Virus record (IMG/VR): IMGVR_UViG_3300001450_000416
Span: 1 to 21,072 of that record
Strand: one strand, 5' to 3'
DNA: 21,072 nucleotides
Origin: a virus
In this document: piece by piece, positions 5,822 through 20,730 of the stretch
How positions within the stretch are numbered: the first letter of the stretch is position 1
Layout: every line of letters begins with the position of its first letter
Notes under the pieces: model-generated
Seen by the model: only the letters and a program-made list of their open reading frames with translations
Told to the model about the DNA's origin: nothing
Database searches by the model: none
Translations under genes and position numbers: made by a program

Positions 5822-7612
5822 ATGGCCGAAAAAATAGTATCGCCAGGAGTATTTACCAGAGAAAGAGACTTAACATTCTTACCAGCTGGAGTACAAAACA
5901 TAGGCGCAGCAGTAATAGGACCAACAGTAAAAGGACCTGCATTAATTCCAACCATAGTATCAAACTTTGCTGAATATAGACAAATATTCGGAGATAGTTT
6001 TGAAAGTGGTTCAGGAGCAAATTTAGGATATTATTCATATCTAACTTCAATAGCAGCCGAAGAATATTTAAGACATCATGACACATTAACAGTTGTTAGA
6101 ATATTAAATGGTGACTTTGGTGGAGCAAATTCAAAAGTACAAAATTCATTAGGAAATTCATCTTCCTTTACATTACATACATTATCAGATGGTGCAATAT
6201 TAAATAATGGTTTAGCTGCAGCATCAACTGCAGGATCTGGATCAGCAGCTGATTCTGGAACTAATGGTTCATTATATTCTGGATCAAAAGATAACATAAG
6301 ATGGGAAATCGCAAGTAAAAATAATTCAAGAGGTACTTTTTCATTATATATTAGATCAGGTAATGATACAGTTAAAAGAAAAAATATTCTTGAAACTTGG
6401 AATAACTTATCATTAGATCCAAATTCAACAAATTATATTGCAAAACGAATTGGAGATGCAAAACTTAATTTAAGAGGATCAGGAACAACCGATCCTTATA
6501 TACAAGCATCAGGTTCATATCTTAACAAATCAAAATATGTAAGAGTTGCAGTAGAAGAAACAACATTAAATTATTTAGATGAAAATGGTAATATTAGAGA
6601 TGATGGTACAGGTGCAATAGCAGCAGCACTATCAAGTTCACTTCCATTACAAGTATCAGGAACATTTAGTGGTGGTAGTGATGGAACTATTGCTCATCCA
6701 CAAAATTTCTATGATCAAATTACTGCAACAAATACGCAAGGATATAATCCAGCTACATGTGATGAGTATACAGATGCAATTAACTTATTAGGTAACCAAG
6801 ATGAATATGATATTAACTTATTACTGATACCTGGTATTTGTTCTGCCTTAGCTGGACATTCAACTATTGCAGCAACTGCAATACAAATGTGTGAAGATAG
6901 AGGAGATTGCTTTACGATTATTGATCCAGTAGCTTATGCATCACAAATATCAGATGCAACATCTGAAGCAGAGAATAGAGATTCAAATTATGCAGCCGTT
7001 TATTGGCCTTGGATACAAATAGCAGATAATTATGCATCCAAAAATGTTTGGGTTCCTGCATCAGCTGCAATGGGTGGTGTATATGCATTTAATGATAAGG
7101 TAGCAGCTGAATGGTTTGCTCCTGCAGGTTTGAATAGAGGTGGAATTGATAGAGCAATACAACCAGAAAGAAAATTAACTCATTCTAATAGAGATTCATT
7201 ATATGATTCAAATGTTAATCCATTAGCAACTTTCCCTAATAGTGGAGTTGTTGCATTTGGACAAAAAACATTACAGAAGAAAGCATCTGCATTGGATAGA
7301 GTAAATGTTCGAAGATTGTTAATCGCAGCTAAGAAATTTATTGCATCAGCAACTAGATATTTAGTATTTGAACAAAATACATCAGAAACTAGAAATAGAT
7401 TCTTAAGTATAGTTAATCCATACTTAGAAAGTGTACAACAAAGACAAGGTTTATATGCATTTAAGGTAGTAATGGATGAGTCAAATAATACACCAGATGT
7501 AATTGATAGAAATGAAATGGTTGGGCAATTATTTTTACAACCAACTAGAACAGCAGAATTTATAATCATTGACTTTAATGTGTTACCAACGGGTGCAGCA
7601 TTTCCGGAATAG
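5822..7612 (+). CDS. gp18: Contractile tail sheath protein (gp18-like)
   Basis: A 596-residue protein forming the contractile outer layer of the tail. The N-terminus has the classic sheath start (IVSPGVFTRERDLT, then VIGPTVKGPALIPTIVSNFAEY and the IFGD segment). LTSIAAEEYLRHHDTLTVVR at about residues 72-91 is the conserved segment that follows. The central region (roughly 100-300) is the variable surface-exposed part. The C-terminal part (about 470-596) matches the sheath C-terminal domain: NVRRLLIAAKKFIASATRY, a long helical stretch, then TRTAEFIIIDFNVLPTGA as the final strand. T4 gp18 is 659 residues, so the length is typical. It has its own candidate promoter and a strong ribosome binding site, as expected for a highly expressed virion protein. 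The tube gene follows. Confidence 0.93.
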   Translation: MAEKIVSPGVFTRERDLTFLPAGVQNIGAAVIGPTVKGPALIPTIVSNFAEYRQIFGDSFESGSGANLGYYSYLTSIAAEEYLRHHDTLTVVRILNGDFGGANSKVQNSLGNSSSFTLHTLSDGAILNNGLAAASTAGSGSAADSGTNGSLYSGSKDNIRWEIASKNNSRGTFSLYIRSGNDTVKRKNILETWNNLSLDPNSTNYIAKRIGDAKLNLRGSGTTDPYIQASGSYLNKSKYVRVAVEETTLNYLDENGNIRDDGTGAIAAALSSSLPLQVSGTFSGGSDGTIAHPQNFYDQITATNTQGYNPATCDEYTDAINLLGNQDEYDINLLLIPGICSALAGHSTIAATAIQMCEDRGDCFTIIDPVAYASQISDATSEAENRDSNYAAVYWPWIQIADNYASKNVWVPASAAMGGVYAFNDKVAAEWFAPAGLNRGGIDRAIQPERKLTHSNRDSLYDSNVNPLATFPNSGVVAFGQKTLQKKASALDRVNVRRLLIAAKKFIASATRYLVFEQNTSETRNRFLSIVNPYLESVQQRQGLYAFKVVMDESNNTPDVIDRNEMVGQLFLQPTRTAEFIIIDFNVLPTGAAFPE

Positions 7613-7677: not shown

Positions 7678-8166
7678 ATGGCAGATTTATTAAGTCCGAA
7701 CGAAGTGATGTATACCGCATATGAACCAAAAGTAGCTAACAGGTTTATAATGTATATAGAAGGAATTCCTGCTTATATCATTAAGGCATCATCAAGACCT
7801 TCAATTGATCAAGGTGAATTGATTTTAGATCATATTAACGTTGAAAGAAAGTTAAAAGGAAAATCTAGATGGCAAGATATTACAGTAACATTATATGATC
7901 CAGTTGTTCCATCAGGAGCGCAAGCAGTTATGGAATGGGTTAGATTACATCACGAATCAGTAACAGGTAGAGATGGATATAGTGATTTCTATAAGAAAGA
8001 TATTGTAATGAATACATTAGGACCTGTAGGTGATAAGGTTGAAGAATGGACAATTAAAGGAGCATTTATTTCTTCTGCAACATTCGGTGATATGGATTGG
8101 GCAACAGAAGATGCTATTAATATTGAATTAACTCTAAAATATGATTATGCAATCCTTCAATTCTAG
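7678..8166 (+). CDS. gp19: Tail tube protein (gp19-like)
   Basis: A 162-residue major tube subunit, almost the length of T4 gp19 (163). The N-terminus (MADLLSPNEVMYTAYEPKVA) leads into RFIMYIEGIPAYIIKASSRP, the typical tube strand pattern. WQDITVTLYDPVVPSGAQAV and VMEWVRLHHESVTGRDGY are signature segments of this family. EEWTIKGAFISSATFGDMDW and the final INIELTLKYDYAILQF complete the beta barrel. It would stack as hexameric rings inside the sheath. It is monocistronic: its own candidate promoter lies upstream and an intrinsic terminator 27 bases downstream. Confidence 0.95.
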   Translation: MADLLSPNEVMYTAYEPKVANRFIMYIEGIPAYIIKASSRPSIDQGELILDHINVERKLKGKSRWQDITVTLYDPVVPSGAQAVMEWVRLHHESVTGRDGYSDFYKKDIVMNTLGPVGDKVEEWTIKGAFISSATFGDMDWATEDAINIELTLKYDYAILQF

Positions 8167-8192
8167 AAAATAAGATCATAAAGCTTAAGAAG

Positions 8193-8219
8193 TCCTACCT
8201 ATACGGTGGGATTTTTTTT
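8193..8219 (+). terminator. Intrinsic (Rho-independent) terminator after the tube gene
   Basis: Stem TCCTACC (8193-8199), five-base loop TATAC, stem GGTGGGA (8205-8211), then eight T (8212-8219). The seven pairs include one G-T. It separates the highly expressed sheath and tube genes from the chaperone and tape measure unit, which restarts at the TATTTATA element 10 bases later. Confidence 0.88.
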
Positions 8220-8226
8220 GCTCTTG

Positions 8227-8237
8227 CATATTTATAT
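8227..8237 (+). promoter_or_regulatory. Candidate late promoter, TATTTATA element before the chaperone gene
   Basis: CATATTTATAT (core 8229-8236), preceded by CTTG, lies directly after the terminator T-tract and 36 bases before the ATG at 8273. A terminator-promoter pair in a 106-base gap strongly suggests a new transcript starts here. Confidence 0.65.
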
Positions 8238-8272
8238 TAAATGTTATTAATATTATAAAGGAAGATTAAGTT

Positions 8273-9169
8273 ATGGCTAAAAATGTAAGCGAAGAATACC
8301 CAGGTAAAAAACCAACCACTCAAGAAATAGCAGAAGTATCACATATTTCTACTGAAGAATTAAAAGCAAGAGCAATTGATGCTTATGTAGGCGAAACTGC
8401 TAAAAAGCATGATTTCCCAACAGAAATAATAGATTTACCATCAAGAGGCTTATTATATGCTGAAGATAGTACTTTAAGAACTGGTAAAGTAGAATTAAAG
8501 TATATGACCGCTAAGGAAGAAGATATTTTAACTACGCAATCTTATATTAAACAAGGAGTTGTTTTAGATAAATTATTTCAATCATTAATTATAAGTAATG
8601 GTGAAGGTAAGAAAGTTAAATACAATGAACTATTATTAGGTGATAAAAATGCAATTATGATTGCTGTAAGGATATTAGGATATGGAAAAGATTATCCTAT
8701 TGAAATTATGAATCCATCTGGTGAGAAACAAAAAGAAACAGTTGATTTAACTCAATTACCAGAGAAAGAAATTGATGTTGATATATTCAAAAATGGATTA
8801 AATAGATTTCCATTCAAATTACCAGCAGCAAAAAGAACGATAGAATTCAAATTTTTAGTACATGGTGATGAACCTAGTATTGAAGCTGAGATTAAAGCAG
8901 CTAAGAAATTCTCTAGAGGAGTAGATTCGACATTATCAACTAGATTAACATATTCAATTGTATCAGTTGATGGAAATGAAGATAGAATGGCAATTCGTAA
9001 GTTTGTTCAAAATGAACTATTAGCATTAGATTCTAGAGCTCTAAGAAAATATATGAGATCTTTACAGCCAGATATAGATACTACCTTAGTATTAGAAGAC
9101 CCAACCACGGGCGAAGATTTTGAAATAGATCTTCCAATCGGTACAGACTTTTTTTGGCCTGGGGCCTAA
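8273..9169 (+). CDS. Tail assembly chaperone, gp26-like (short, unshifted form)
   Basis: A 298-residue protein of the T4 gp26 / 'T4 base plate protein' type, a non-virion or hub assembly factor. The recognisable core is DLPSRGLLYAEDSTLRTGKV, then LKYMTAKEEDILTTQSYIK and GVVLDKLFQSLII, at residues 54-108. A second region, around 225-285, runs through RALRKYMRSLQPDIDTTLV and ends IGTDFFWPGA at the stop. It lies between the tube and tape measure genes, where lambda G/GT and equivalent chaperones lie in many tailed phages. The stop at 9167-9169 sits in the loop of a hairpin, and a further 65 codons continue in the +1 frame, so a longer form is likely (see the extension). The strong GGAAG site and start at 8273 are unambiguous. 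Confidence 0.75.
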   Translation: MAKNVSEEYPGKKPTTQEIAEVSHISTEELKARAIDAYVGETAKKHDFPTEIIDLPSRGLLYAEDSTLRTGKVELKYMTAKEEDILTTQSYIKQGVVLDKLFQSLIISNGEGKKVKYNELLLGDKNAIMIAVRILGYGKDYPIEIMNPSGEKQKETVDLTQLPEKEIDVDIFKNGLNRFPFKLPAAKRTIEFKFLVHGDEPSIEAEIKAAKKFSRGVDSTLSTRLTYSIVSVDGNEDRMAIRKFVQNELLALDSRALRKYMRSLQPDIDTTLVLEDPTTGEDFEIDLPIGTDFFWPGA

Positions 9170-9362
9170 CTATAGGCCCATTCTGCATAGCCAAATATTT
9201 GATTTGGTATATTGGGGGAAAGGTGGGTTCAATTGGTCTGATGTTTATAACATGCCAGTTTGGCTACGTCTCTTCTATATTGATAAAATTTCAAGAATTC
9301 ATAAGAAAGAAAAAGAAGATAATGATAAGGCTATGAAGAATAACAAAGCCAGAAGACGCTAG
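9129..9362 (+). CDS. +1-frame C-terminal extension of the tail assembly chaperone
   Basis: This reading frame is open from 9129 (after a TAG at 9126-9128) to a TAG at 9360-9362 and is +1 relative to the chaperone. After the overlap it encodes PNYRPILHSQIFDLVYW, then GKGGFNWSDVYNMPVWLRLF and a lysine/arginine-rich helical tail ending KARRR. The segment reads like real protein, and I recall GGFxWxxVYxMPxxLRxFY at the end of gp26-type proteins from other T4-type phages. There is no ATG before the one at 9252, deep inside the motif, and no ribosome binding site, so it is probably made only as a fusion. A +1 slip of GGG at 9161-9163 onto GGG at 9162-9164 would give a 362-residue product (297 + 65). 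A homopolymer sequencing error at T7 or G4 is the main alternative. Confidence 0.7.
   Translation: MFQSVQTFFGLGPNYRPILHSQIFDLVYWGKGGFNWSDVYNMPVWLRLFYIDKISRIHKKEKEDNDKAMKNNKARRR
9149..9179 (+). promoter_or_regulatory. Candidate recoding site with hairpin around the chaperone stop codon
   Basis: Seven T (9149-9155), GGCCT, four G (9161-9164) and the stop TAA (9167-9169) lie within the 41-base window where the shift must occur (9129-9169). GGGCCT (9162-9167) and AGGCCC (9174-9179) form a perfect six-pair stem around the loop AACTAT, overlapping the stop codon. GGG-G allows the P-site glycine tRNA to re-pair perfectly after moving +1. The T7 run is a second possible slip site. Confidence 0.5.
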
Positions 9363-9390: not shown

Positions 9391-9402
9391 CATATTTATA
9401 TT
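9391..9402 (+). promoter_or_regulatory. Candidate late promoter, TATTTATA element before the 99-aa gene
   Basis: CATATTTATATT (core 9393-9400), preceded by GTTC, lies 24 bases before the ATG at 9425. It may drive the long unit through the tape measure and baseplate genes, since no further copy occurs between genes until 20735. Confidence 0.6.
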
Positions 9403-9424
9403 AAATTAAATAACGGACAAGACT

Positions 9425-9724
9425 ATGGCAAAATCAGAAAAACATCAACAAGATCAAAACAATCAACTTAACGAAGGATTGTTTTCTCCTTTATTCAAAA
9501 AGCTAATACAAAAGCGATTGAAAAAACAACTTAAAAAGTTAGAAAGAAATCCTGCAATGCGAGGCGCACTCAAACGTCTAGATAAAGCTACGACTGATTT
9601 TGAACGTGAACTAGAAATAAATGGAGAACTGTTAGGAGATATGGATGAAAAGGATATGGATAGAGAGGAGAAAAATCTAGCTGCATTCTATAGAGGTTTA
9701 GGTCTAAAGTGGAGAGGCAAATAG
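9425..9724 (+). CDS. Small basic helical protein upstream of the tape measure
   Basis: A 99-residue protein of unknown function. After a polar N-terminus (residues 1-17), NEGLFSPLFKKLIQKRLKKQ begins a long basic amphipathic helix. An acidic helix follows (about 55-85), and the end is AAFYRGLGLKWRGK. I recall comparable small proteins next to tape measure genes in marine T4-type phages, without a known role. The position between the chaperone and tape measure genes suggests an assembly partner of one of them. T4 has gp51 as a second hub assembly factor, but I see no convincing similarity. A weak CGGAC site precedes the start. Confidence 0.6.
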   Translation: MAKSEKHQQDQNNQLNEGLFSPLFKKLIQKRLKKQLKKLERNPAMRGALKRLDKATTDFERELEINGELLGDMDEKDMDREEKNLAAFYRGLGLKWRGK

Positions 9725-9745: not shown

Positions 9746-12700
9746 ATGGCTGATAAACAACAAGCAGAAGCATTAAAACTTAGAGAGCGAGAACTCGAAG
9801 TAGTAAAAGAGCTCAAACGAGTCGAACTAGCCGGCAATATCGGTACAGCTAAACACAACCAATTATTAAAAACAAAAGGTGAGTTAGCTGATAAAATTAA
9901 TAAGTTATATGATATAGCCGATAAAAGTATCCAAAAGATTGGTGATGGAATTGGATCACTTGTCAAAGATTCAGGAGAAACGGCTAAATTATTTACTGAT
10001 CTAGTAAAATCTTCAAAAACATTTGGAAAGAATAATCAATTTGCTGCAGCTCAAGCAAAAGCAAATCAACAGTTCGGTAACGGAATTTCTAATAATTTAG
10101 CACGTGGAGTAGATGCACAAAGTGAAATAAATAAACTTACAAATAAGGACCGAATAACAACTGGTAAGGCTGGAAAACTCCGTGATTCACTTGTAAAATC
10201 ATACGGAACTGAGATTGGTTTAGCAAATGCATCATTATTAGTATATAAAAATATAGCTGATGAACAAGCTGAAATTGCAAAAATGGAGGCAACGCGTGGT
10301 TCTCTATTAATGGAGAGCATAAATACTTCATATGCAGAAGAAGCTTTAGCCAAATCCAAATTTGACTTAGCTAAAAATCAACATCAATTAACTGGTAGTG
10401 CATTGAAACGTGCACAAGCAGGTATTAAAGAACAAGAACTGGCAGTTAACTTATTAAAAGAATCTGCAGCCGTTCAACAACTACAAATTAGTCAGCGAGA
10501 TGCAATGACTGAAGCTATTGTAGGACCATTTGAAAAAATGAAAGGGGTTATAGAATCATTACCAGGAGGAGGTATGCTTTCTAAAGCAATGGGATTAAAT
10601 GATTTTGGTAATGAATTAAATGATATTGTTGGAAAGTCTATACAAGTAGGACTTGCAGGTGGAACTCAAGCAGGAGTAGATTCATTCAAAGCCATGACCG
10701 CTCAGTCTAAGGTATTTGGTGTAGTATTAAATAGTGCATTATTACCGCTATTAGGAATTGCAGCAATATTGATAGGTGCAATAATGCTATTCAAATCTAT
10801 GGAAAAAACTACTTTAGATATATCTAAAAATCTAGGACTTTCAGCAAATGAATCAGAACGAATGGCACAATCAGCAAGAGATCTTCAATCATCAAGTGCT
10901 AATAATTTATCAACCACAGAAGAAATAGTTGCTGCCCAAGGTGAGTTAGTTAATGCGTTTGGAAATACATCACAATTTTCAAAAGAAACTGCACTTAATA
11001 TGGCTAATTTATCAACGGCATTTGGTATTGCAGTTGGAGATGCAGCTGCAGTTCAAGCTATATTCCAATCAATGGGAGAATCATCAGAAGATGCATTCCA
11101 AACACAAGCTTTAGCAGCTAACCTATCAGAAGCCGCTGGAGTTGCTCCTGGAAAGGTAATGAAAGATATTGCACAAAATGGAAAGAAGGCAGCAAAATAT
11201 TTAGGTGGTGCAACTAAAGAATTAGCTAGATCAGCAGTAGAGGCAGCTCGATTAGGAATGTCATTAGGAGATATGGTAAGTATTGCAGATGGATTATTAG
11301 ATATTGAATCATCAGTAACAGCTGAATTTGAAGCTTCTGTAATGTTAGGTAAACAGATAAATATGGATAAGGCTAGGCAACTAGCTCTAGAAGGAGATAT
11401 AGCAGGAGCAACAAAAGCAGTATTAGAACAGACCGGTTCATTGCAAGAGTTGAATGATATGACTTATATGCAGCGAAAGAAGATAGCAGAAGCAGCTGGT
11501 ATGGAAGTAGGTGCATTAATGGATGCAGCTCAGAAACAAGAACACTTGAATAATATGACCGGGGAACAAAAAAAGCGGTATGAAGAAGCATCAAAGGCAT
11601 TAGAAGGAGCTACATTATCACCAGAAGATATAGTTGCACAACAAGAGGCCGCATTAGCTACAAAAGAAATGGGAGCTCAATTTGATAAGATAAAAAATAC
11701 GTTAATGAAAGCATTTTATCCAATTGTAAAAGCAATTACAAATATATTTACAAATGTATTGTCACCAGTTATAGATGTTATAGGATCTGCATTTTCAGGT
11801 ATGATGGTTGTATTATGGCCAATACAAAAAGCATTTGAAGGTATAGGTGCAGTAGTTAAATTTATGGCTCCTGCATTAAAACTAGTATTAGGTTTTCTTG
11901 GAGCAATATATGCAATTAAAGCGTTAATATGGGCAGGAGATAAAATAAATTTAGGAATTCAAGCAACTAAAGCGGCATTTGCATCTAAAGAAGCTGCAAG
12001 TGCAACAGGTATTAATCTATTAAAGAAAATGGGACTGATTAGTGATCAAATGGCCGGCAAGGCTTTATTATCAAATTCCATAACAGCAAAAGGTACAGCT
12101 TTAACTGAAGGCCAAGCAGCAATGGTGAAACGAAACTCTTTATTGACTCAACTAAAAACATCTGCAATCGCAGCAAAAGATTGGGTTGTAGCAAAAGGAC
12201 AACTACTAACTCAGTACTTATTTGGCACTGAAAAGGCAAAGGCGTTAGGATCAACAATAAAAGAATCTGCAATTAAGATGAAAGATTGGATAATGGATAA
12301 AGCTACATTGGCACTTGCATATACAAGGAATCTTTTGAAGTCAGGCGAATTAGGAACGACTATTGCAATTGGTGTACAAAAAGGTTTAGCATTTGCAAAA
12401 GATGTTGCATCTAATGCATTATTAGCAGGTAAATGGGTTATGGAGCAAGGCGTGTTAGCAATTCAATTTGCAATTAATGCTGCAAAGGCTGTAGGAAATG
12501 TAATTGCAATGGGTGGAGTTGCACCATTAATGGCCGCGGCAGGAGCTGCTATTGCAGCTGCAATACCTGCAATATTTACTGGACTTGGTATGGTGCCATT
12601 TGGATTAGGTATTCCGTTAGCATTTGCAGCGGTTGCAGGCCTAATAGGATTAATGTCATCAATGACATCTGGAGATGATGTTATGTCAAAACCATCCGGA

Positions 12701-13291
12701 GGATCAGGATATGGATCTAGAACATTATTTGGACCAGAAGGATCTATAGCATTTAATAATAAAGATACAATTGTAGCAGGAACTAATTTATTTGCAAATG
12801 ATATGGTACAAGCACCTAAAGGCTCAATAAAAATGAATGATGGAATGATTGGTGATATGCCAGATCCACCAGAATCTAAAACAATTGATTTAGGAGCTGA
12901 TGCAATTAAGAAAATAGGAATTGCAGTTGGGTTAGGAACATTAGCATCAGGAATGATGTTAAAGGCAATACCACAAATGACATTTGAATTGAATCCATTA
13001 GCTTGGTCTATGTTTGGTGGTTTAGGAGGACTATTTGGAGGAGGATCAAGCGCACCAGGATTAAGTAAAGAAGGTGAAGGAGAAGGGGATGGTGCAACAT
13101 TAGATACTATAGCAGAAAAGTTAGATGCATTAATAGCAGCTGCCAGCGGAACTGGTAAAGGTAAAGGTGCAAAAAGTAATGAACCAGTACAAATTGTAAT
13201 TGGTAATAGAGTAATTGAGGAAATTGGTAGTCAAATTGGCGTTAATAAATCATATAATATTGGCCATGGTAGTGGCGGAGAGGAAGGATAA
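9746..13291 (+). CDS. Tail tape measure protein (gp29-like in role)
   Basis: A 1181-residue protein likely to set tail length and occupy the tube lumen. Residues 1-300 are charged and helical with coiled-coil character. Hydrophobic segments lie near residues 321-350 (VLNSALLPLLGIAAILIGAI), 704-731 and 922-973 (Ala/Gly-rich), as in many tape measure proteins. The long central region is Ala-rich and helical. The C-terminus carries a Gly/Ser/Lys linker and then VQIVIGNRVIEEIGSQIGVN, a compact end domain I recall from related phages. T4 gp29 is 590 residues; at about 1.5 angstroms per residue this one would fit a tail of roughly 170-180 nm, an estimate only. The stop overlaps the next start by one base (TAATG), so the two are translationally coupled. 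Confidence 0.85.
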   Translation: MADKQQAEALKLRERELEVVKELKRVELAGNIGTAKHNQLLKTKGELADKINKLYDIADKSIQKIGDGIGSLVKDSGETAKLFTDLVKSSKTFGKNNQFAAAQAKANQQFGNGISNNLARGVDAQSEINKLTNKDRITTGKAGKLRDSLVKSYGTEIGLANASLLVYKNIADEQAEIAKMEATRGSLLMESINTSYAEEALAKSKFDLAKNQHQLTGSALKRAQAGIKEQELAVNLLKESAAVQQLQISQRDAMTEAIVGPFEKMKGVIESLPGGGMLSKAMGLNDFGNELNDIVGKSIQVGLAGGTQAGVDSFKAMTAQSKVFGVVLNSALLPLLGIAAILIGAIMLFKSMEKTTLDISKNLGLSANESERMAQSARDLQSSSANNLSTTEEIVAAQGELVNAFGNTSQFSKETALNMANLSTAFGIAVGDAAAVQAIFQSMGESSEDAFQTQALAANLSEAAGVAPGKVMKDIAQNGKKAAKYLGGATKELARSAVEAARLGMSLGDMVSIADGLLDIESSVTAEFEASVMLGKQINMDKARQLALEGDIAGATKAVLEQTGSLQELNDMTYMQRKKIAEAAGMEVGALMDAAQKQEHLNNMTGEQKKRYEEASKALEGATLSPEDIVAQQEAALATKEMGAQFDKIKNTLMKAFYPIVKAITNIFTNVLSPVIDVIGSAFSGMMVVLWPIQKAFEGIGAVVKFMAPALKLVLGFLGAIYAIKALIWAGDKINLGIQATKAAFASKEAASATGINLLKKMGLISDQMAGKALLSNSITAKGTALTEGQAAMVKRNSLLTQLKTSAIAAKDWVVAKGQLLTQYLFGTEKAKALGSTIKESAIKMKDWIMDKATLALAYTRNLLKSGELGTTIAIGVQKGLAFAKDVASNALLAGKWVMEQGVLAIQFAINAAKAVGNVIAMGGVAPLMAAAGAAIAAAIPAIFTGLGMVPFGLGIPLAFAAVAGLIGLMSSMTSGDDVMSKPSGGSGYGSRTLFGPEGSIAFNNKDTIVAGTNLFANDMVQAPKGSIKMNDGMIGDMPDPPESKTIDLGADAIKKIGIAVGLGTLASGMMLKAIPQMTFELNPLAWSMFGGLGGLFGGGSSAPGLSKEGEGEGDGATLDTIAEKLDALIAAASGTGKGKGAKSNEPVQIVIGNRVIEEIGSQIGVNKSYNIGHGSGGEEG

Positions 13292-19383: not shown

Positions 19384-20730
19384 ATGAAAATTGTTGAAGA
19401 TAAAGCCAGGTTACAAGAGTTAACTAAATCATTAGAAACTTCTGATAGTTTTTGGATACCAGTATTTTCTGATTTGTATCGACATTATGTAAATAATCAA
19501 ATAAGTTTTGTTTATATTTATATAGTTAATACGAAAAAAGAGTATATTATACCATTCCATCATAAGGATTGTATATGCCTAGAATCCGAACATCTAAACC
19601 GGTTTACAAGTAAGGCGGATATCTATGTTTTGGGCAAGAAACGCTTTGTAAATTTCTACCATCATAAGACGTTTGACGCTGATTTAGTTGAATACTTTCA
19701 AAGTAATAAAATGTTACAACTAGAGGATACAGATACAAATGCACATGATTGGTTCAATAAGTGGTATTACAATGAAACAAATGTAAATGATTATATTCCA
19801 ATAGTTAAACATTTTGAAAGATGTTCAGAAATGAAAGATAAATTTATGGAATCATTTACAACTTTCAAAAAATCACAATCATTTGAATATTATAATGATT
19901 TGTTTATAGATAATCTATATGCAATAGAAAGGAATGGATTAAAAGTTAATTATGATAAATTTGTAGAAAAGTTTCAAACAAATAATTTAATTGGAGCAAC
20001 AGCCTATACTGAATATAATATCTATACAACTACAGGAAGGCCATCTAATAAACATGGTGGAGTTAATTATGCTGCAATTAATAAAGAAAATGGGTCTAGA
20101 GAATCATTTATCTCAAGACATGAGTATGGTATGTTATTAGAGTTAGACTATGACTCATACCATTTAAGGCTAATTGGAGATATTATTGATTACGAATTAC
20201 CAGAGTCATCTGTGCATACATATTTAGGAAAACAATATTTTGGTAAAGAAGAATTATCTAAAGAAGAATATGAACAAAGTAAAACAATATCCTTTAGGTT
20301 ATTATATGGAGGAGTAGATAAAGATTTTGCAAAGATTCCATATTTTGGTAAGGTAAGAGAGTATACATATAAATTATGGAAGAAATTCCAGAAACAAGGT
20401 TATATAGAAACTGCCATTCTAAAAAGAAAGTTATTTAGAACTGCAATGACAGATATGAATCCAAGTAAATTATTTAATTATTATTTACAGAGTATGGAAA
20501 CAGAATATAATATGGCAATGATAAATGAAGTAAATGCTTTATTAGGACCATATGATACTAAATTAATTTTATATACATATGATTCATTATTATTTGATTT
20601 TGCTATTAAGGATGGAAAACAATTGATATTAGATATTAAAAAGACAATGACGGCAGACAAATTTCCAGTCAAAATCAAAGCTGGAAAAACAATGCAAGAC
20701 TTACAAAATATGACTGATAAACTAAGTTAG
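19384..20730 (+). CDS. Divergent, compact family A DNA polymerase-like protein
   Basis: A 448-residue protein with the family A polymerase order. TTTGRPSN is at 215-222. Motif A is LELDYDSYHLRLI with D255 at the E. coli Pol I D705 position. Motif B is QSKTISFRLLYGG with K300, F304 and Y308 matching K758, F762 and Y766. NYYLQ (N365, Q369) matches N845 and Q849, and motif C is LYTYDSLLF with D400 matching D882. Several usual residues differ: E710 is H260, R754 is Y296, H881 is Y399 and E883 is S401. Residues 20-100 resemble a shrunken 3'-5' exonuclease domain (YIIPFHHKD recalls Pol I YIPVAHD) without a clear DxE. Activity is therefore uncertain. It starts 41 bases after the baseplate unit with no visible ribosome binding site. 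A replication gene here is unusual. Confidence 0.8.
   Translation: MKIVEDKARLQELTKSLETSDSFWIPVFSDLYRHYVNNQISFVYIYIVNTKKEYIIPFHHKDCICLESEHLNRFTSKADIYVLGKKRFVNFYHHKTFDADLVEYFQSNKMLQLEDTDTNAHDWFNKWYYNETNVNDYIPIVKHFERCSEMKDKFMESFTTFKKSQSFEYYNDLFIDNLYAIERNGLKVNYDKFVEKFQTNNLIGATAYTEYNIYTTTGRPSNKHGGVNYAAINKENGSRESFISRHEYGMLLELDYDSYHLRLIGDIIDYELPESSVHTYLGKQYFGKEELSKEEYEQSKTISFRLLYGGVDKDFAKIPYFGKVREYTYKLWKKFQKQGYIETAILKRKLFRTAMTDMNPSKLFNYYLQSMETEYNMAMINEVNALLGPYDTKLILYTYDSLLFDFAIKDGKQLILDIKKTMTADKFPVKIKAGKTMQDLQNMTDKLS

Follow-up and report, generated by a model that had tools for sequence, protein, structure and literature searches.

The window, that is, the whole stretch of 21,072 nucleotides of viral DNA analysed here, carries a T4-like tail cluster comprising a sheath gene (5822-7612), a gp19-like tail tube protein gene (7678-8166, plus strand; phrog_4542, E=3e-24), a gp26-like gene (8273-9169, plus strand), a 99-aa ORF and a 1181-aa ORF (9746-13291, plus strand). 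Based on its position and length, the latter, to which no Pfam or PHROG family could be assigned, is probably the tape measure protein gene, and the same position is annotated as tape measure in L003 and in Listeria phage LIS04. The gp26-like gene lies between the tube and tape measure genes, as is typical of a two-form chaperone of the G/GT kind, and the gene order is the same in L002, L003 and L007. The 99-aa ORF (9425-9724) is situated between the reading frame described below and the tape measure gene, a location at which Mel-JY01 has a small ORF, too. Exact copies of ATATTTATATTAAAT occur at 8228-8242 and 9392-9406, upstream of the chaperone gene and of the 99-aa ORF, and near copies at 2516 and 20734; five matches were reached in 3 of 100 shuffles, and the repeat is a candidate T4-type late promoter. 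A terminator-like hairpin (8187-8217) separates the tube and chaperone genes, and in phage SP-15 a terminator is annotated at the corresponding position. Adjoining the tail genes, at 19384-20730, is an ORF resembling family-A DNA polymerases (PF00476, E=4.5e-13); at only 448 aa, it has the appearance of a short polymerase or of part of a split one.

The gp26-like ORF starts with the ATG at 8273, stops with the TAA at 9167-9169 and encodes 298 aa. Its product matches PF12322 (T4_baseplate; E=3.8e-6) with 27.2 bits against a curated cut-off of 24.5, which places it in the T4-like gp26/PF12322 tail chaperone family, and it also matches phrog_150 (E=1.3e-8). The top PDB match of its predicted residues 44-137 is the HK97 tail assembly chaperone 2ob9 (Foldseek E 0.4), with a VIA Z score of 5.9 over 81 residues that is modest and, being under 8, below the safe range; the match is suggestive of, but does not prove, a tail assembly chaperone (TAC) fold for the N domain of the predicted structure. 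Position, family and fold point to a tail assembly chaperone, in a phage related to T4 and with a contractile tail, and we refer to the 298-aa form as TAC-N.

The overlapping frame in the window and its relatives

Near the 3' end of the chaperone gene a second frame of the plus strand, shifted by +1, is open from 9129 to 9359 and closes with TAG at 9360-9362. Joining the two frames at a T-run yields a single protein of 362 aa, whose C-terminal extension domain (TAC-C) is coded by 9156-9362. The joined protein matches phrog_150 with E=7e-9; this match ends at position 237 of 282, so that the profile gives no confirmation of the extension. The initial annotation had read the locus as these two frames with products of 298 and 362 aa and no usable start in the +1 frame, and re-reading bore out the coordinates, the sizes, the T-run (9149-9155) and a G4 run (9161-9164). 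Close to the junction, the +1 frame contains a single start-type codon, the TTG at 9204, which sits inside a conserved block.

A search of IMG/VR proteins returned 598 relatives, the best 80 of which were taken, and each of these 80 loci encodes a homologue of the extension, shifted by +1 against the chaperone frame. Comparison with relatives, which had been proposed as a check, is thus clearly positive, revealing a conserved overlapping extension in another frame close to the 3' end, as is characteristic of a two-form chaperone. The layout is also found in Mel-JY01, in Flavobacterium phage immuto and in the 484-kb phage LR756508, the protein of which retrieved 20 further loci (15 +1, 2 with a separate ORF, 3 truncated). 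Similarly, the extension is present as an open +1 frame in Bacillus phage SP-15, Listeria phage LIS04 and Streptococcus phage GXN1. Once near copies had been removed, 77 non-redundant members, including the window, were left, all of which share this layout, a recurrence far above what chance would produce. SP-15 as IMG/VR query found itself as the sole match, and gp26 of P-SSM2 was not located.

In the extension core, median dN is 0.14 and median dS 1.41 (ratio about 0.10), after 33 further pairs saturated at dS had been left out, and changes per codon position amount to 0.16/0.09/0.43, i.e. they fall mostly on third positions. Judging from these substitution patterns, the extension is under purifying selection and a real protein. 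Alignment of the extensions shows that F1, L3, Y7 and G25 are near-invariant and that Y32, P35 and R39 are invariant. AlphaFold predicts the extension blocks at residues 301-360 with a pLDDT of about 84-96, including helices at 300-314 and 329-360. Comparison of the extension profile to T4 gp51 by hhalign gave no match; neither an Rfam family nor a plasmid was matched.

Putative shift site and downstream hairpin

The putative shift site, TTT TTT TGG (9149-9157, plus strand), consists of the run of seven T residues followed by GG. A P-site TTT can re-pair there one base in the 3' direction, upon which the codon GGC (9156-9158) would be read. Sixty of the 77 members have the identical site, and the remainder carry TTT CTT TGG (5), TTT TTT TAC (4), TTC TTT TGG (3) or, in single members, CTT TTT TGG, TTT CTA TTC, TTT TTT CAC, TTT TTT AGT and TTC TTT CGT. 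At least one option for +1 re-pairing in the P site, as required for a +1 frameshift, is kept in all 77.

The window lacks an X_XXY_YYZ heptamer with an extension in the -1 frame, as the extension is in the +1 frame and the T-run is preceded by a C (9148, plus strand), which spoils the -1 heptamer U_UUU_UUU. Across the 77 members this base is C in 49, G in 19, A in 6 and T in 3, whereas third positions elsewhere in the chaperone gene are 38% T and 11% C; a binomial P of about 3e-12 for the scarcity of T ignores phylogeny and can only serve as a guide, the relatives not being independent. Since a U in front of UUU UUU would create a canonical -1 heptamer, we read the non-T base, which is the reverse of the T_TTT_TTY seen in -1 relatives, as selection against a shift of the wrong sign. 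A slow A-site codon, either a stop or a rare codon, is common in known cases of +1 frameshifting but not universal. Pausing at a rare A-site codon was considered as a stimulus and is unsupported here: the A-site codon UGG is not a stop and, at 8.6 per 1000 codons in the window genes, not rarer than GGC (7.1 per 1000), although tRNA levels in the host may differ.

Four nucleotides past the UGG begins a hairpin of seven pairs, GGGCCTA-ACTA-TAGGCCC (9162-9179, plus strand), which holds the 0-frame stop codon in its 5' arm and loop. Among the 47 members with the same stop position, all seven pairs are formed in 15, compared to 2.2 expected and a maximum of 7 in 10,000 re-deals of the arms, in a test that involved no choice based on pairing and was not corrected for relatedness. 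Within these 15 members, changes on both sides occur at five of the seven pairs, and the covariation is 0.469, compared to 0.226 for shuffled alignments (none of 500 shuffles reached the observed value) and at most 0.099 when the arms are slid; as the 15 were picked for pairing, their percentage of paired positions is uninformative and the other covariation measures are somewhat favoured. The folding energy at this position of the window is ordinary (z -0.93). Members with the stop 15 nt downstream have no common stem, except for L028, L033 and L048, which share a different one. As far as the alignments go, the hairpin is confined to part of the +1 clade, the subclade of the window. Within the set compared, the conservation of frame, site and hairpin is demonstrated, as is selection acting on the extension.

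Proposed mechanism and alternative readings

Taken together, the sequence comparisons make it very likely that the window virus, like a large clade related to it, produces a short and a long tail chaperone through +1 ribosomal frameshifting. We infer slippage as the event, along with its rate and function, in the following form. Most ribosomes would stop at 9169 and yield TAC-N of 298 aa. In a minority, the tRNA-Phe on the P-site UUU of UUU UUU UGG would slip forward by one base to the overlapping UUU, GGC would be read next, and termination at 9362 would yield a long form of 362 aa, TAC-NC. The C in front of the T-run would suppress -1 slippage, and in the subclade of the window the hairpin probably slows the ribosome. 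By analogy to lambda G and GT, a coat of many TAC-N and few TAC-NC molecules might form on the tape measure protein, and tail tube subunits might be recruited through the extension. For lambda, PMC5009743 describes a model in which many G and few GT are placed on the tape measure and T recruits tube subunits; a corresponding division of labour between TAC-N and TAC-NC is suggested by this likeness.

The same frame could be reached by a -2 slip in which two U residues are re-read, as in phage Mu, and in the window as well as most relatives the seven U residues would permit the P-site UUU to re-pair two bases back; in addition, 3' hairpins are more typical of backward than of forward shifts. However, the three members with TTC TTT TGG (L104, L106, L109), the one with TTT CTA TTC (L004) and the one with TTC TTT CGT (L008) lack a -2 option according to a simple pairing rule written for this analysis, which does not consider energies. 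In these five, re-pairing is possible only by +1 and is perfect, which renders the backward slip unlikely. A loss of one U from some mRNAs by transcriptional slippage might be expected at a seven-T run in an AT-rich genome, but the frame relation is unchanged in relatives with runs of only three to four T residues (TTTCTTT, TTCTTTT, TTTCTATT, TTCTTTC), the non-T base before the run is selected, and it is the RNA hairpin that covaries; we consider slippage of the polymerase quite improbable.

Alternatively, the extension might be a separate protein, translated from its own start or by re-initiation at the stop codon, as T4 has separate genes 26 and 51 and two relatives, L114 and L119, are indeed arranged with a start of their own. 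In 33 of the 77 members, however, the window among them, there is no ATG, GTG or TTG between the upstream stop in the +1 frame and the conserved block, which in the extension alignment begins at the shift site itself. For these members an independent start, named at the outset as an observation that would overturn the frameshift, does not come into question, while for L114 and L119 it does apply; for the window, we regard a separate protein as highly unlikely. Finally, a single contig with a homopolymer run invites the suspicion of a sequencing error or a pseudogene. A single indel, the other observation named in advance, cannot be common to 77 divergent relatives: because all of these non-redundant members, sequenced isolates among them, show the same +1 relation, a sequencing error in the window is excluded, and the probability of an error or a pseudogene is practically negligible. 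A +1 ribosomal frameshift is, thus, the reading that we prefer.

Probable other routes to a long form in the wider family

A tree of 54 TAC-N proteins gives good support to the clade of the window (35 rows, 100/98), and all members of this clade are +1 except for L114 and L119. In these two phages, the TTT TTT T site is lost, and a separate ORF starting with an ATG of its own, located just after the stops at 2718 and 2715, respectively, encodes the extension together with new N-terminal residues; both phages are nested beside members with CTT-type sites. Outside this clade, jumbo and other T4-like phages show a -1 extension, in most cases at T_TTT_TTY: RaK2, PBECO4, Vibrio phage 2.275.O, Atu_ph07, Phosso, PA5oct, RAS14, XacN1 and LR756511, as well as cyanophage ACG-2014g, Moby and Va3 and less clearly Klebsiella phage 0507-KN2-1; these assignments were made by reading open frames with similar helical tails, without statistics. 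In T4, genes 26 and 51 lie apart. The initial proposal of a two-form +1 chaperone is supported for close relatives of the window virus, but not for more distant T4-like phages, which use -1. It is probable that a single chaperone family obtains its long form interchangeably by a -1 slip, a +1 slip or separate genes, with a large, mostly uncultured T4-like clade using +1 with signals of its own (UUU_UUU_UGG or UAC, a preceding non-U suppressing -1 and, in a subclade, the covarying hairpin) and two phages in this clade having switched to a separate start codon.

Vladimirov, Gautam and Davidson (2022, Virology 566:9) reportedly identified the TACs of T4-like phages, with frameshifting in some groups and separate 26/51 genes in T4. 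The idea of a short and a long form in the same gp26/PF12322 family is common to that study and ours, and the proposal that the gp26 homologue is the G/GT equivalent agrees with it. In contrast to the poly-T -1 signals given for T4-like TACs in work citing that study (PMC12846349 / PMC10885494), the clade of the window has a different signal and would shift by +1. The layout resembles that of lambda G/GT in its location between tube and tape measure genes, its short and frameshifted long form and its other-frame extension near the stop, a likeness of arrangement; according to PMC5009743, lambda shifts by -1, whereas the window would shift by +1 at UUU_UGG. With respect to the sign of the shift, the window resembles the tail chaperone of HSTV-2, where the same paper considers a +1 shift very likely as the counterpart of the G/GT frameshift, and the forward tail chaperone shifts of the SEA-PHAGES set (PMC10885494); these cases concern other hosts, and the accessible text of both sources reports no covarying hairpin.

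As in the +1 shift of bacterial prfB (RF2) at CUU_UGA, the P-site tRNA would move by one base onto UUU, and the immuto-type variant reads CUU_UGG_C. Unlike prfB, the site has UGG instead of a stop codon in the A site and, in the window, lacks a visible Shine-Dalgarno-like spur upstream. A literature search, largely confined to freely accessible journals, found no report of +1 shifts in the T4-like TAC family. Frameshifting of T4-like tail chaperones has itself been published; what seems to be new is the shift by +1, together with the signals for it and the split genes nested in the clade. Our comparison suggests that the direction of a frameshift can switch within one gene family via a few bases around the same T-run, and the family therefore supplies natural pairs with which the determinants of +1 versus -1 slippage can be tested. 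Several annotations would have to be corrected: the extension is entered as separate or truncated hypothetical genes in Mel-JY01, immuto and SP-15, and in cyanophage ACG-2014g (L125, 2184-2400) an annotated 'gp51' of 96 nt lies within the stretch of the -1 extension of gp26, at TCT TTT TTC.
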